A program made the translations under genes and the position numbers. From the NCBI RefSeq assembly GCF_000280495.2, contig NZ_CP018016.1, forward strand, positions 4,278,001-4,342,000: a stretch of DNA of 64,000 bases, in the 5' to 3' direction. Under the pieces are notes generated by a model. The model was not told the DNA's origin. It worked only from the letters and a program-made list of their open reading frames with translations, and did no database searches. Shown piece after piece: positions 11,399-17,154 of this stretch (position 1 is the first letter of the stretch; every line of letters starts with the position of its first letter). The stretch comes from Kosakonia radicincitans DSM 16656 (GTDB taxonomy: Bacteria; Pseudomonadota; Gammaproteobacteria; Enterobacterales; Enterobacteriaceae).

Positions 11399-11535
11399 CG
11401 TTTTTTCTTTTTGCCTTGCACCGCTTTGAAACGCGGATTGGATTTACAGATCACATATAAACGCCCCTTGCGCCGGACAATCTGGCAGTCAGGGTGGCGT
11501 TGTTTCGCACTGCGCAATGAATTCAGTACCTGCAT
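11395..11535 (-). CDS. ykgO: Alternative ribosomal protein L36 (RpmJ2, YkgO), zinc-independent
   Basis: A small 46-residue frame starts [17 protein letters not shown] and ends in a basic tail [10 protein letters not shown], the L36 type-B paralogue. Canonical L36 binds zinc through a CxxC-CH motif; this version lacks the full set, keeping only isolated Cys residues ([16 protein letters not shown]). In zinc starvation such C- paralogues replace the zinc-containing proteins in the large subunit and spare zinc. It lies 3 bp downstream of ykgM in the same transcript. Its TAA (11395-11397) overlaps the TAA of the convergent acetyltransferase gene. Confidence 0.93.
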
Positions 11536-11538
11536 CAC

Positions 11539-11799
11539 TTACTCCTTTTTATCGCTAAAAAAGCGACCGTAACGTTGCTGGAAACGTGCCGCGCTGCCTT
11601 CGTTAGCAATCACTTTTTGTTTACCGGTGTAATAAGGATGCGACGCAGACGAAACGTCGATGGTGACGTACGGATAGTTCACGCCTTCCAGTTCGATTTC
11701 GCGTTCCGTTTTAATGGTTGAACCCACTTTGAAATACTCGTTGGCGCTGGTGTCGTGGAATACCACGGTACGATAGTGAGGATGGATATCAGCTTTCAT
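11539..11799 (-). CDS. ykgM: Alternative ribosomal protein L31 type B (RpmE2, YkgM), zinc-independent
   Basis: The protein has 86 residues, begins [20 protein letters not shown], has the L31 core ending [10 protein letters not shown] and contains no cysteine at all. The zinc-ribbon CxxC of ordinary RpmE is therefore absent, which defines the type-B paralogue. It is made when Zur lifts repression under zinc limitation and replaces RpmE on the 50S subunit. A near-perfect Zur box lies 15-35 bp upstream of the start, and ykgO follows after 3 bp, so the pair is a Zur-controlled operon. Confidence 0.96.
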
Positions 11800-11813
11800 A
11801 ATTCACTCATCTG

Positions 11814-11834
11814 TTTTGTTATAACATAACAAAA
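11814..11834. promoter_or_regulatory. Zur box upstream of ykgM-ykgO
   Basis: A perfect 9+9 inverted repeat with a 3-bp centre, ttttgttat-aac-ataacaaaa, resembles the enterobacterial Zur consensus (gttataacataac core). Its location just upstream of the zinc-free L31/L36 operon is where Zur is known to bind in E. coli. Confidence 0.85.
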
Positions 11835-11951
11835 GTCTATCGAAGTTATTTCTCCATTTCAAGCGATCCGCGTTATGCGTTTTTCGCAAAAGCACGTGAT
11901 CCTGCGCGGACATAAATTAGAAAAGAACGTTATTGGTTGAATTGGTGCCCC

Positions 11952-11976
11952 TCAGGCAAGCTGTGATCACACCTGA
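11952..11976. promoter_or_regulatory. Dyad upstream of the oxygenase/transporter operon
   Basis: The 10-bp palindrome tgtgatcaca (11962-11971) lies inside an outer repeat tcagg (11952-11956) and cctga (11972-11976), 18 bp before the Cys-rich leader frame. It could be an operator or an RNA hairpin; the binding factor is unknown. It does not have CRP half-site spacing. Confidence 0.35.
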
Positions 11977-11993
11977 CGAAGAGGAAAAAGAAA

Positions 11994-12119
11994 ATGCGCT
12001 GTTGTTGTCCCCGAACCCTGAACCTGACCAGAACACGATTATTGACTGCTTTCGGAGAACACAATGAACGCAACGACGTTACCGATCCTCGATCTTTCCC
12101 GCTATACGCACGGCGCTGA
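11994..12119 (+). CDS. Putative poly-cysteine leader peptide overlapping the oxygenase start
   Basis: A 41-codon frame starts at ATG 11994, preceded by gagg at 11981-11984 (9-nt spacing), a better ribosome site than most random frames have. It reads MRCCCPRTLNLTRTRLLTAF and has three consecutive tgt codons at positions 3-5. It ends with TGA at 12117-12119, inside the oxygenase gene, so it covers that gene's ribosome site (ggag near 12054) and ATG (12064). Poly-Cys leader frames upstream of sulfur-metabolism genes are known from other bacteria as cysteine-responsive attenuators. Here the role is inference; no protein function is claimed. Confidence 0.5.
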   Translation: MRCCCPRTLNLTRTRLLTAFGEHNERNDVTDPRSFPLYARR

Positions 12120-13092
12120 GCGCGAACGCTTTCTTGCCGATCTGCGCCACGCTGCGCGCGATATCGGTTTCTTCTACCTGATTAACCACGGCGTCGATGA
12201 CGCACTGCAACACGCCGTCCAGCAAGAATCCCGACGTTTTTTCGCCCTGACTGATGAGCAAAAACAGCAAGTGGCGATGATCCACTCCCCCCATTTTCGT
12301 GGCTATAACCGCGCCGCTTCAGAGATAACCCGCGGGCAACCGGACTGGCGCGAGCAGTTCGATATTGGCGCGGAACGCCCGGCGCTACTGCTCAGCGACA
12401 GCGATCCCGGCTGGCGACGCTTACAAGGCCCGAATCTTTGGCCGCAAGCCTTGCCAACGCTGAAACCCGCCCTGCTCGCCTGGCAGAAGGCGATGACCGG
12501 TATGGCCATCACACTGCTGCGGGCGTTTGCCGAAGCACTGCAACTGCCTGCGGACGCCTTTGACGCGCTGTATGGCGATAAACCGAACGAGCATATCAAG
12601 CTGATCCGCTACCCTGGCCAGCACTCGACCCGGAGCGCGCAAGGCGTTGGCGCCCATAAGGATTCCGGCTTTCTCAGTTTTCTGCTGCAGGACGAGCAAA
12701 AAGGGCTGCAAGTAGAAGTCGAACCAGGCCACTGGATCGATGCCGCGCCGCTGGCGGGCAGTTTTGTCGTCAACATTGGCGAACTGCTGGAACTGGCCAC
12801 CAATGGCTATCTGCGCGCCACCGTTCACCGCGTGGTTTCGCCCCCTGCGGAACAGCAGCGTTTGTCGATTGCTTTCTTCCTCGGCGCCCAGCTCGATGCG
12901 GTGGTGCCGTTGTACACCCTACCGCCGAAGCTGGCGCAAGAGGCGCGCGGGCCGGAGAGCGATCCGCACAATCCGCTGCTGCGCGACGTCGGCTGGAACT
13001 ACCTGAAAGGCCGCCTGCGCTCCCATCCGGATGTGGCGGAACGTTATTACCGCGATGTGCTGCGCGAACGCACTGAACAATTGATCGTCTGA
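12064..13092 (+). CDS. 2-oxoglutarate/Fe(II)-dependent oxygenase, isopenicillin N synthase-like
   Basis: This 342-residue protein has the double-stranded beta-helix of the 2OG-Fe(II) family. An N-terminal DIOX_N-type region (IGFFYLINHGVDDALQH) precedes the catalytic core with the metal triad His198-x-Asp200 (VGAHKDSGFLSF) and His255 (ATVHRVVSP). The 2-oxoglutarate-binding Arg266 lies in QQRLSIAFF. The substrate is not known. It is the first gene of a four-gene unit with MetQ/MetN/MetI-like transporter genes (25-bp gap to the next). This suggests that it oxidises the imported compound, perhaps releasing sulfur or an amino-acid part (inference). The poly-Cys leader frame overlaps its start. Confidence 0.87.
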   Translation: MNATTLPILDLSRYTHGAERERFLADLRHAARDIGFFYLINHGVDDALQHAVQQESRRFFALTDEQKQQVAMIHSPHFRGYNRAASEITRGQPDWREQFDIGAERPALLLSDSDPGWRRLQGPNLWPQALPTLKPALLAWQKAMTGMAITLLRAFAEALQLPADAFDALYGDKPNEHIKLIRYPGQHSTRSAQGVGAHKDSGFLSFLLQDEQKGLQVEVEPGHWIDAAPLAGSFVVNIGELLELATNGYLRATVHRVVSPPAEQQRLSIAFFLGAQLDAVVPLYTLPPKLAQEARGPESDPHNPLLRDVGWNYLKGRLRSHPDVAERYYRDVLRERTEQLIV

Positions 13093-13117
13093 CCATAACA
13101 ACACAGGAACACACATC

Positions 13118-13924
13118 ATGAAACATGCCGCTTTTACTCTGGCAGGGGTAGCACTGTCTCTTTCTCTGGTATGGACTTCCGCCCAGGCTGAAGCACTGCG
13201 CGTCGCCGCCGACCCGGTACCGCACGCGGAGATCCTCAATTACATCAAAAAGATCGATCCGAAACTGGATCTGAAAGTGGTTGAATTAACCAACGGCGCC
13301 AATGCTAACGAGCTGCTGGCGAACGGCGATGTCGATGCCAACTACTTCCAGCATGTGCCTTACTTGAAGGATCAGGAAAAGGCGCTGGGCAAGACTTTTG
13401 CTGTTGCCGCGACGGTACACATTGAACCGCTCGGCATCTATTCACATAAATACAAGGATTTCAAATCGCTGCCGAATAACGCCAAAGTGGCCGTGCCGAA
13501 TAATGCCACTAACCTGAGCCGCGCCCTGTTCCTGCTGCAAGCCCAGGGATTGATCAAACTCGACAGCAAGTTCACCGATCCGGCCACCACCCTGGCGACG
13601 CCGAAAGACATCGCCCAGAACCCGAAACATTTGCAGATCCTGGAAATTGAATCGCCGCAAATCCCGCGCTCGCTGGATGATGTCGATCTGGCGGTAATCA
13701 ACGGCAACTACGCGCTGGAAGCAGGGCTGAGCCCGGCGAAAGATGCGCTCGGTCTGGAGAGTGCGAAGCACAACCCTTATGCCAATATTCTGGTCACCAA
13801 CCCGCAATTGGCCAACGATCCGCGCATCAAAGAACTGGCCAAAGATCTGACCTCACCGCAGGTCGCGGAGTTTATCCGCAAGCAATATAACGGTTCCGTG
13901 ATCCCGGTTGCGCCGCAGTCATGA
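13118..13924 (+). CDS. MetQ/NlpA-family periplasmic binding protein, not a lipoprotein
   Basis: This 268-residue substrate-binding protein is of the MetQ/NlpA family, whose usual ligands are methionine and related compounds. The N-terminus ([19 protein letters not shown], cleavage after AQA) is a signal-peptidase-I signal; there is no cysteine anywhere in the protein. It therefore cannot carry the lipid anchor found in MetQ and should be freely periplasmic. Family features include [12 protein letters not shown] near the mature N-terminus and the region [12 protein letters not shown]. Its stop overlaps the ATPase start by 4 bp (atga), showing tight coupling. The ligand is probably a sulfur compound or amino acid, unproven. 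Confidence 0.88.
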
Positions 13925-14712
13925 TTGAGATTGAAGGGCTGAGTAAAATCTACGCTGGAGCAGGCCGACCGGCGTTAAAAGAGGTGTCGCTGAACGTACC
14001 GAAAGGCGCGATTTACGGCATCCTCGGGCGCAGCGGCGCAGGGAAAAGTACGCTAATCCGTTGCCTTAATCTGCTGGAGCGGCCCACTGCGGGCCGTATT
14101 ATCGTGAACGGTAATGACATCACCCAACTGAATAAGACAGGGCTTCGCGAACATCGGCTGCGCACCGGCATGATTTTCCAGCACTTCAATTTACTGCATG
14201 CGCGTACGGTCGCCGATAATGTCGCCGTGCCGCTGGAAATCGCCGGTGTAGCGAAAGACCAGCGTCAGGCGCGCGTAGAAGAACTGCTGTGGCTGGTGGG
14301 ATTAAGCGAAAAAGCGCACGCCTTCCCGTCACAGCTTTCCGGCGGACAAAAGCAGCGTGTCGGCATTGCCAGAGCGCTGGCGGCACACCCGGATGTGCTG
14401 CTGTGCGACGAAGCCACCAGTGCGCTGGATCCGGAAACTACCGCGTCAGTGCTGGAGTTACTGGCAGACATCAACCAAAAACTGCAACTCACCATTGTGT
14501 TGATCACCCATGAACTGGAAGTGGTCAAAACGCTGTGCGATCACGCGGCGCTGCTGGAAAATGGCGAAGTCATAGAGAGCGGGAAAATCGCTGATTTGCT
14601 GGTTGCTCCGTGGTCGCGACTGCGCCAGGCGCTGCTGCACGATCCGCAGGCAGAGCAGGCATTTCTTGCTCGTCATGGTTTTACCGGGAGGCCGTTATGT
14701 GGGGTCGCATGA
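13921..14712 (+). CDS. MetN-like ABC transporter ATPase without the C-terminal regulatory domain
   Basis: This 263-residue nucleotide-binding protein has Walker [10 protein letters not shown] (about residues 37-45), signature [15 protein letters not shown], Walker [14 protein letters not shown] and the H-loop LITHELEVV. It resembles MetN over the ABC domain, but MetN has about 343 residues because of a C-terminal NIL/ACT domain that binds methionine and inhibits transport. That domain is missing here, so this importer probably lacks methionine feedback. It overlaps the binding-protein gene by 4 bp and the permease gene by 16 bp. Confidence 0.9.
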
Positions 14713-15368
14713 GCTGGGAGGATCTCTGGCCGCTGCTGTTAAACGGCTCGCTGGAAACCATTTATATGGTCGGCCTGTCGGCACTCTTTACCGTGCTGAT
14801 TGGTCTGCCGCTGGGTGTACTGCTGTTTATTTCCCGCAGTAATGGCTTAGCGCCGATGCCAAAGCTGAATGCGCTGCTCGGTACGATTATCAACATTGGC
14901 CGCTCGCTGCCATTTATTGTGCTGTTGATTGCGCTGATCCCATTTACCCGGTTACTTATAGGAACCACGCTCGGCAGTACCGCCGCCGTCGTGCCGGTGA
15001 CTATTGGCGCATTTCCCTTCTTCGCGCGCCTGACGGAAACCGCACTCGACGAAGTGGATTACGGACGCATTGAAGCTATTTTATCCATGGGCGGTAACCT
15101 CTGGCATGTGATTACCAAAGCGCTGTTGCCGGAAGCGCTTCCCACGCTGCTGGCCGGGATTACCTTAACGGTGGTGATGCTGATTGGCTTCTCATCAATG
15201 GCGGGCGTAATTGGCGGTGGCGGGCTGGGCGATTTAGCCATTCGTTACGGCTACCAACGCTTTAACAACCAGGTCATGTTCGGCACTGTGATTATCCTGG
15301 TGGTGATGGTACAGGGCGTGCAAATGGTGGGTGATCGCCTGGTTCGCCGACTGGCACACCGTCGATAA
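14697..15368 (+). CDS. MetI-like ABC transporter permease
   Basis: This 223-residue permease is read from ATG 14697, which has a strong ribosome site (gggagg, 14687-14692) within the end of the ATPase gene. It has about five membrane helices and a MetI-type coupling loop around [20 protein letters not shown], with the later helix region [20 protein letters not shown] that is typical of methionine-family permeases. It completes a one-operon importer with the preceding ATPase and binding protein. MetI of E. coli has 217 residues, so the length is normal. Confidence 0.9.
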
Positions 15369-15579
15369 GCTGTTCCGGCGTTTCTTTGCCCTGAAAACCA
15401 GGAAAGAGGCGCCGTTTATCCCTTCTTGTTTGGTAAAAATTTCTTAGCTAACCTGCACCGCAGACTCTTTTTTCCTCACCCCTGCTCATCCTGAAAGAAA
15501 ACAATTGCTGCCGCGTGATATAACATTTGCGGGTGAAAGATACGCTATGTTTATCAGTATCAAAGAGGGATTTTTGATC

Positions 15580-17154
15580 ATGACTAATCGACGGCTGGTA
15601 ACTCTTATTATCGCGATTCTGGCGCTCGCGCTGATCCTCCCGCCAGGGCTGAGTATCTGGATGACCCATCGCCAGGCTAAAGAAACGTTTATGGATCAGC
15701 TTGAAAGCTATTCAAAGCTGGCGGATATGCGCACACTGCGTGTCGTTAACGAAAGTAAAGCCGCGCTCCGGCAACTGGAAAACTGGCGAGGCCCGGTTTG
15801 TACCGCCGAACATCTGCTGGAGATGCAACGCGCTTCTTACGCCCATCGCTATGTGCAGGAAGTTTTATACGTTGACGATCTTCAGCCGCGCTGCTCATCG
15901 TTGCAAAGCGGCACCTCGACATCGCCCTTCCCGCCGCCAAAGAAAATTACCGCAGATGGCTTTCGCGTCTGGCTTACGCGTCACAATGATTTGGGTTTAT
16001 CGCGGAACATGATTGCCATCGGTAATGAGCATTATGTCGTGATGGTCGATCCCCAGTCGTTTATCGATATCCTCTCTTACGGCTCGCTTCCGCTGCACTT
16101 CTCGCTGGTCAATACCAGCACCCGGCAAGTCATTGCGGGTAGTACGGAGATCCCCCGCACCGTGCTCGAGCAGATAGCGCAACGCGCGCAAACGACAGAG
16201 CATTTCCGGGAATCAACCTACCACATTAAATACGATGCCAGCCAGGGGCTGGCCACCGTAACCTGGATGCCGGACACGCCGCTGGAAAACAACTGGCATC
16301 GTTTATTGACTATCTGGGTGCCGTTCAGTTTGCTGATGAGTTTATTGCTCGCCTTTGTTTTACTCAGAGTGCTGCGTCGTCTGCAATCGCCGCACTATCA
16401 GTTGCAGGAGGCCATCCATCGCCGTGAAATCATGGCGCATTACCAGCCGATTATGGCGCTGGAAAGCGGGCGTATCGTTGGAGCCGAGGCGCTGGCGCGC
16501 TGGCAGCAAAAGGACGGCACTTTTCTGTCGCCGGATATTTTTATCCCGCTCGCGGTACACAGCGGCCTGATGCCGCAGTTGACCAGGCTGATGATTGAAA
16601 ATGTGTTTGCCGATATGGGGCCATGGCTGCAGCAACACCCAGAGCAGCATATCTCTGTCAATCTGGAACCCACCGATCTGCTGGATCCGGGCCTGCCGGC
16701 TCTACTCGCGGAATTACTACAGCGCTGGCAGCTTTCGCCGTCGCAAATCGCCTTAGAACTAACCGAGCGGGGTTTTGCCGATCCGGTCGTCAGCGGCCCG
16801 GCGATCAACACGCTGCGCGCCGCAGGCCATGCGATCTACATTGACGATTTCGGTACGGGTTATTGCAGCCTGAGCTACCTGCAAAACCTCGACGTCGATA
16901 TCATTAAAATCGATAAATCGTTTGTCGATGCGCTGGAGCACAAAACCGTGACGCCGCACATTATCGAGATGGCAAAAGCCTTAAAGCTGGCGATGGTTGC
17001 CGAAGGTATCGAAACCGAAGCTCAGTTGCAGTGGCTGAAACAGTGTGGCGTGGAATATGGGCAAGGCTGGCTTTACAGCAAAGCGCTACCGGCGGAGGAG
17101 TTTATTCGCTGGGCGGAAAATAACCTTCATGAGAAAGCGCTCTGCTACTGTTAA
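15580..17154 (+). CDS. pdeB: PdeB (YlaB), CSS-motif EAL-domain c-di-GMP phosphodiesterase
   Basis: This 524-residue inner-membrane enzyme hydrolyses cyclic di-GMP. Start ATG 15580 (ribosome site agaggg) matches the E. coli YlaB N-terminus pattern, with the first membrane helix LVTLIIAILALALILPPG. A periplasmic CSS domain with the redox motif CSS (RCSSLQS) and a second membrane helix near residues 250-275 follow. The C-terminal EAL domain is complete (GAEALARWQ, NLEPTDLL, ELTERGF, IDDFGTGYCSLSYL, KIDKSF, AEGIETEAQ), so it should be active. CSS domains are controlled by DsbA/DsbB-dependent disulfides. In E. coli ylaB also lies between ylaC and ybaA; here accessory genes separate it from ylaC. 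Confidence 0.92.
   Translation: MTNRRLVTLIIAILALALILPPGLSIWMTHRQAKETFMDQLESYSKLADMRTLRVVNESKAALRQLENWRGPVCTAEHLLEMQRASYAHRYVQEVLYVDDLQPRCSSLQSGTSTSPFPPPKKITADGFRVWLTRHNDLGLSRNMIAIGNEHYVVMVDPQSFIDILSYGSLPLHFSLVNTSTRQVIAGSTEIPRTVLEQIAQRAQTTEHFRESTYHIKYDASQGLATVTWMPDTPLENNWHRLLTIWVPFSLLMSLLLAFVLLRVLRRLQSPHYQLQEAIHRREIMAHYQPIMALESGRIVGAEALARWQQKDGTFLSPDIFIPLAVHSGLMPQLTRLMIENVFADMGPWLQQHPEQHISVNLEPTDLLDPGLPALLAELLQRWQLSPSQIALELTERGFADPVVSGPAINTLRAAGHAIYIDDFGTGYCSLSYLQNLDVDIIKIDKSFVDALEHKTVTPHIIEMAKALKLAMVAEGIETEAQLQWLKQCGVEYGQGWLYSKALPAEEFIRWAENNLHEKALCYC

Follow-up and report, generated by a model that had tools for sequence, protein, structure and literature searches.

The poly-cysteine leader frame and the operon behind it

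The window, i.e., the whole stretch of 64,000 nucleotides from Kosakonia radicincitans DSM 16656 that was analysed, holds a short reading frame with consecutive cysteine codons at the front of an operon encoding an oxygenase and an importer. The first codons of this frame are an ATG, an arginine codon, and three TGT cysteine codons, and its stop at 12119 falls 56 nt beyond the oxygenase ATG (12064). A sequence-only reading had placed here a poly-Cys leader that covers the ribosome site and the start codon of the oxygenase gene, and it was right on both counts: the coordinates, the start, the Cys codons 3-5, the ribosome site, and the stop within the oxygenase gene are exact in the sequence, and the oxygenase GGAG (12054-12057) and ATG both lie inside the frame. 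The presence of the poly-Cys leader frame at 11994-12119 is confirmed. Its 41-residue product has no match in a Pfam search, and its sequence contains no RAPP arrest motif. The locus comprises the following features:

11912-11936, plus strand: promoter-like box ATAAATTAGAAAAGAACGTTATTGG, from an alignment of 23 leader loci, three leaderless loci, and the window
11955-11963, plus strand: GGCAAGCTG, about 18 nt after the box, from the same upstream alignment
11981-11984, plus strand: leader Shine-Dalgarno (SD) sequence GAGG, 9 nt 5′ of the leader ATG at 11994
11994-12119, plus strand: poly-Cys leader frame of 41 residues, MRCCCPRTLNLTRTRLLTAFGEHNERNDVTDPRSFPLYARR and a stop, out of frame with the oxygenase, whose start it overlaps
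12000-12008, plus strand: leader Cys codons 3-5 (TGT TGT TGT in the translated sequence), the presumed stall site
12009-12057, plus strand: hairpin predicted by folding, with 12009-12015 paired to the oxygenase SD region 12051-12057; lineage-dependent
12054-12057, plus strand: oxygenase SD sequence GGAG, within the leader frame
12064-13092, plus strand: 2OG-Fe(II) oxygenase, isopenicillin N synthase-like (PF14226, PF03171), without Cys
13118-13924, plus strand: MetQ/NlpA-like binding protein (PF03180; below the MetQ cut-offs), without Cys
13921-14712, plus strand: MetN-like ATPase (best NCBIfam match MetN, below its cut-off)
14697-15368, plus strand: MetI-like permease (PF00528; best NCBIfam match MetI), in the 223-residue reading from 14697

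The genes behind the leader had been described as an oxygenase plus a methionine-family importer. The families stand, with a 2OG-Fe(II) oxygenase and MetQ-, MetN-, and MetI-like proteins, but all three importer proteins score below the curated Met cut-offs (in the case of the permease, 205.7 bits against an NCBIfam MetI cut-off of 212 bits), and they are therefore relatives of the methionine system rather than that system itself. Since the MetQ-like protein (13118-13924) holds no cysteine, it has no lipobox and, judging from its sequence, is expected to be free in the periplasm, in contrast to MetQ, a lipoprotein. The absence of cysteine extends to 78 of the 80 oxygenase orthologues examined (the best 80 of 291 loci) and, for the MetQ-like protein, to 74 of the 77 loci at which one was identified. 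Proteins made in sulfur starvation tend to have a low sulfur content. In the oxygenase, the lack of cysteine is a trait of the family that is also seen at leaderless loci, and it is not tied to the leader. A putative function of the operon in sulfur scavenging is suggested by its gene families, which fall below the curated Met cut-offs. The best sequence matches of the oxygenase among solved structures are 9ovh (a 2-oxoglutarate-dependent ethylene/succinate-forming enzyme) and 6jyv (a probable iron/ascorbate oxidoreductase). The protein is 99% identical to the oxygenase of Kosakonia sacchari SP1. A Klebsiella record carries the same four genes, with no feature annotated just 5′ of the oxygenase in a gene table that is incomplete.

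Upstream of the leader, aligning the window with 23 of the 61 loci that have a leader and with three leaderless loci revealed the conserved promoter-like box, which is clear in most Enterobacteriaceae rows, is unrecognisable in the two Brenneria rows, and has no second occurrence in the genome when up to 3 mismatches are allowed. A simple sigma-70 scan found no plus-strand promoter in 11820-12200. Further upstream, a small divergent gene (11559-11850, minus strand), which we take to be an alternative L31 ribosomal protein gene, is accompanied by a palindromic AT-rich site, gttataacataac, presumably resembling a Zur box. As for the activator acting at the promoter-like box, CysB is a guess, and the literature search found nothing on a CysB site with TTATTGG. 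By term search, the operon is not mentioned in the accessible text of two papers on sulfur starvation in Pseudomonas (PMC12581299 and PMC12174637).

Conservation of the leader among orthologous loci

Genome contigs were scanned for relatives of the oxygenase, which gave 291 loci, and the best 80 of these were examined. A leader was called where an ATG no more than 220 nt upstream opened a frame with two cysteines, separated by at most one residue, within its first 12 residues; weak TTG-started frames at three loci (L099, L101, and L107) were not counted. Such an ATG-led leader with clustered Cys codons is present at 61 of these best 80 loci, with a run of at least three Cys in 44 leaders, a run of two in 13, and only interrupted Cys in 4, and an SD-like motif precedes the leader ATG in 60 of the 61. 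These loci belong to the Enterobacteriaceae and neighbouring families, and the genera include Kosakonia, Klebsiella, Raoultella, Phytobacter, Trabulsiella, Kluyvera, Pseudocitrobacter, Franconibacter, Cedecea, Buttiauxella, Brenneria, Sodalis, and Biostraticola. The 19 loci without a leader are those of Erwinia and Pantoea (9), Rouxiella (3), Yersinia, Chimaeribacter, and Edaphovirga (1 each), Pseudescherichia and a near relative (2), and Pluralibacter (2), which indicates that the leader is dispensable. On the protein tree, its presence and absence need at least five changes, suggesting repeated loss under a root placed at the midpoint only. The comparison that the sequence-only reading had proposed came out in its favour: the start, the Cys cluster, and the overlap recur at orthologous loci (61/80 loci, with overlap in 58/61). 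At three leaderless loci (L042, L045, and L060), the upstream box is recognisable and lies directly 5′ of the oxygenase with its own SD. The search for close homologues outside the Enterobacterales yielded none in a class-wide sample of 369 genomes, of which the window's own genome alone matched at E <= 1e-60; complete E. coli genomes gave no match at megablast sensitivity, and three records of a plasmid collection match at about 79%.

The distance from the leader ATG to the oxygenase ATG is 1 modulo 3 in 60 of the 61 loci, through nine different distances from 67 to 100, and the same phase is found in all 13 representatives at <=65% spacer identity. This leader phase is independent of which in-frame start is chosen for the oxygenase. 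Most leaders (58/61) measure 36-47 residues, and 58/61 overlap past the oxygenase start, in most cases with their stop 38-62 nt into the gene. In counts over 60 loci that leave out the Yokenella locus L105, the leader frame carries a stop between the ATGs at only 2 loci, against 54 in the oxygenase's own frame and 34 in the third frame; in dinucleotide-shuffled spacers, a leader-frame stop is expected in 33.4 +/- 3.8 of the 60. Kinship inflates these 60-locus figures, and those of the 13 representatives are fairer, with 1 leader-frame stop observed, 7.2 expected, and none of 2000 shuffles as low.

In termination-reinitiation, a TGA on the next start codon is the usual arrangement. In the other out-of-frame phase, a leader TGA would fall on the start codon in 54 of the 60 loci and one base inside it in a further 5, and the in-frame phase would fuse the leader and oxygenase proteins. 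The observed phase would let a leader ribosome pass the start, with no termination on the start codon and no termination-reinitiation hand-over. A fusion through frameshifting at the Cys codons was likewise considered, and rejected because the oxygenase frame has a stop between the ATGs in 54/60 loci. Two short leaders (L072 and L076, of 25 and 20 residues) stop 22 nt before the oxygenase, which indicates that the overlap is not obligatory. The single phase exception is L105, where the ATGs are 200 nt apart: an insertion, presumably an ERIC-like repeat, ends the leader early and cuts the retained Cys codons off from the oxygenase, resulting in a natural broken variant.

In locus groups aligning without gaps, changes in the spacer between the Cys run and the gene number 158, 160, and 179 at codon positions 1, 2, and 3, and such near equality gives little sign of selection at the peptide level. 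Within the Cys codons, read by eye, the corresponding changes are 2, 0, and 7 (Fisher P 0.013). The few changes inside the Cys codons thus fall mostly on third positions, the pattern that the sequence-only reading had asked about. TGT accounts for 159 of the 183 leader Cys codons versus 17 of 45 in nine window genes, a preference for which pairing with the SD region and slower decoding are both possible reasons. The last Cys codon lies 52, 55, or 58 nt before the oxygenase ATG in 57 of the 61 loci, a gap at which a ribosome stalled on the Cys codons would leave the oxygenase site uncovered. Judging by these alignments, what selection seems to maintain is the Cys codons together with a stop-free, out-of-frame passage beyond the oxygenase start, and not a peptide.

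Predicted RNA structure and terminator searches

In the window, the SD core of the oxygenase is predicted to pair, with a probability of about 0.95, with the bases just after the Cys codons; the Cys codons themselves are predicted to pair with the region of the oxygenase start codon. In the free RNA, opening the oxygenase site is predicted to cost 6.2 kcal/mol. Occupancy of the Cys codons by a ribosome brings this down to 3.6-4.1 kcal/mol, and ribosome positions as far as codon 13 lower it too. Overall, the predicted fold does not stand out (z -0.64). Over the 60 loci, the mean opening cost goes from 6.05 kcal/mol to 4.4-4.7 with a ribosome on the Cys codons and shows no drop (6.11 kcal/mol) with a ribosome in the 5′ UTR. 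Masks placed in the spacer lower it equally, to 4.2-4.4 kcal/mol, and the mean unpaired probability of the SD barely shifts, from 0.30 to 0.33-0.36.

The controls on this pairing were mixed. When arms were swapped among the 60 loci, cognate arms beat permuted ones, with 30 of 5000 permutations as good; over the 13 representatives, the arm swap is not significant (P 0.18). Only 7/60 loci beat 95% of their synonymous recodings and 2/60 beat spacer shuffles, and all nine Buttiauxella loci (L067, L070, L079, L080, L084, L087, L089, L091, and L098) pair worse than their recoded means. A universal SD-hiding hairpin was rejected on these arm-swap, recoding, and spacer-shuffle results, and we take the modelled hairpin to be a helper in some lineages. 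Terminator-like sites are absent from 11820-12200 and Rfam matches from 11500-15600, and transcription attenuation was rejected for the window on these two results.

A candidate cysteine-responsive attenuator, its rivals, and known systems

The leader probably attenuates translation of the oxygenase-MetQNI-like operon in response to cysteine. The Cys cluster, the SD, the phase, the open frame, and the spacing are conserved at the level of sequence; we infer the translation of the leader, the stalling, the direction of the effect, and the sulfur role of the operon. With ample charged Cys-tRNA, leader ribosomes would read the Cys codons fast and would then cross the oxygenase ribosome site and start codon out of frame, a transit that would hold oxygenase initiation low, with the hairpin helping in this genome. 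Once charged Cys-tRNA runs short, the first ribosome would stall at codons 3-5, about 55 nt 5′ of the oxygenase ATG, stopping further leader initiation and masking the 5′ arm of the hairpin, and the oxygenase start would be left free for the operon to be translated. Translational attenuation by ribosome traffic is the reading that uses every conserved part, and the repression exerted by passing ribosomes through occlusion may be only weak. Somewhat short of an even chance, in our estimation, is a traffic-based attenuator in which selection keeps hungry Cys codons close to the beginning of the leader and an uninterrupted out-of-frame passage across the oxygenase start, but neither a peptide nor a terminator nor an obligatory hairpin; passing ribosomes would repress the operon, and those stalled by Cys-tRNA starvation would derepress it.

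Alternatively, RNA structure could be the main sensor, with the Cys tract and the following bases pairing with the oxygenase SD and start, a stalled ribosome freeing the site, and the overlap being secondary. This explanation, which we regard as unlikely if still to be taken seriously, draws on the pairing of the SD core in the window (about 0.95), on an opening cost that falls over the 60 loci from 6.05 to 4.4-4.7 on the Cys codons and stays at 6.11 in the 5′ UTR, and on the arm swap over the same loci (30/5000 as good). However, the P value is 0.18 over the 13 representatives, 7/60 loci beat 95% of recodings and 2/60 the spacer shuffles, nine Buttiauxella loci lie below the recoded mean, masks in the spacer are as effective (4.2-4.4), the SD goes merely from 0.30 to 0.33-0.36 unpaired, and the fold has a z of -0.64. 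Leader ribosomes might also act in the opposite sense, unfolding the site and activating the gene, and stalling would then lower expression. They can melt the hairpin, and the opening cost in the window is lowest near codons 11-12 (1.2-1.8 kcal/mol), but such activation seems improbable: 60/61 loci avoid the phase that would permit termination on the oxygenase start, and a sulfur-scavenging operon whose expression falls on cysteine shortage would make little sense.

Two further explanations concern the peptide and the frame itself. The Cys-rich nascent end, out of the exit tunnel near the gene start, could sense the metal or thiol state rather than Cys-tRNA, for which the leaders of 36-47 residues in 58/61 loci have sufficient length; regulatory uORFs for copper that contain Cys exist, according to the accessible part of PMC9426467. 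Against this stand the two leaders of merely 25 and 20 residues (L072 and L076), a spacer without peptide-level selection, and a 41-residue product without a Pfam match or RAPP, which make sensing by the peptide very improbable. Barely credible is the idea of a functionless frame arising as a by-product of a conserved 5′ UTR. It would agree with a spacer without peptide-level selection and with the missing leader at 19/80 loci, but the phase is fixed through nine spacings, stops are near-absent, and the Cys cluster is kept while the spacer diverges.

Returning to the proposed cysteine-responsive attenuator, several known systems share some of its features. Classical enterobacterial leader peptides such as hisL, trpL, and leuL stall ribosomes at codons of the sensed amino acid and act through a transcription terminator. 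Stalling at such codons is likewise proposed here, but, unlike in those leaders, no terminator was found in 11820-12200. The poly-Cys short ORF attenuators of mycobacteria, reportedly those of Canestrari et al. 2020, Mol Microbiol 114:93, are said to be found on leaderless mRNAs and to work by a ribosome that stalls at the Cys run and frees the next ribosome site. Like them, the present leader is a short frame with a Cys run before an operon (61/80 loci, 44 with a run of at least three Cys), and it would work in a similar manner. Unlike their leaderless start, an SD-like motif is found before the leader ATG in 60/61 loci, and the system belongs to the Enterobacterales, holds its Cys codons at the leader start, and runs out of frame over the next start. 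As to the hiding of the next ribosome site, a hairpin is predicted here in the window and not in all relatives. In the accessible parts of PMC9094748 and PMC13236596, poly-Cys short ORFs of mycobacteria are presented as cysteine-responsive attenuators.

Candidate Cys leader peptides were also predicted in 2005 for the actinobacterial cys and cbs operons (PMC1262725, in part), which resemble the present one in having a Cys run in a short frame before sulfur genes and no obvious terminator. In those leaders, however, the Cys run lies near the stop codon, whereas here it is near the leader start, and an out-of-frame overlap is not mentioned in the accessible portion of PMC1262725. CruR from Bordetella, as far as the accessible part of PMC9426467 goes, is a copper-responsive uORF encoding a DUF2946 protein with CXXC and RAPP motifs, acting through Rho-dependent termination. 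Both are Cys-containing frames upstream of genes, which CruR controls; unlike CruR, with its DUF2946 domain and C-terminal RAPP, the 41-residue leader has neither a Pfam match nor RAPP. The sequence-only reading knew of no description of this arrangement at this locus, and none was found in a literature search with most subscription journals outside its reach.

If the proposal is correct, this would be, as far as that search shows, the first cysteine leader described in enterobacteria, and cysteine would join the amino acids that these bacteria sense through translation of a leader; the locus is also present in Klebsiella and Raoultella. It would furthermore represent an attenuator in which a codon run and a reading-frame relation are conserved, and not RNA structure, and would link the oxygenase-importer operon, so far uncharacterised, with sulfur status. 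The natural variants without a leader (19/80 loci) offer ready comparisons.

How often such a frame arises by chance was assessed in the organism's own 6.1 Mb genome with patterns of AGGA, GAGG, or GGAG, then an ATG, a short gap, and three Cys codons. These gave 4 + 7 + 6 = 17 rows at 15 distinct places, 7 of which have the ATG and three Cys codons in frame without a stop, and five of these seven (L138, L140, L141, L142, and L145) fall within longer open frames or antisense to them. For three-Cys frames with these three SD types, only the present leader and one mini-frame (L139) stand directly 5′ of a gene, and a genome-wide set of poly-Cys leaders was accordingly rejected. That SD-led mini-frame, MLCCCRSSF followed by a stop (G000:C1:507300-508700, minus strand), precedes a gene that we take to resemble degS, and its first 23 bases are matched at <=3 mismatches in 11 of the 15 genomes of the genus.
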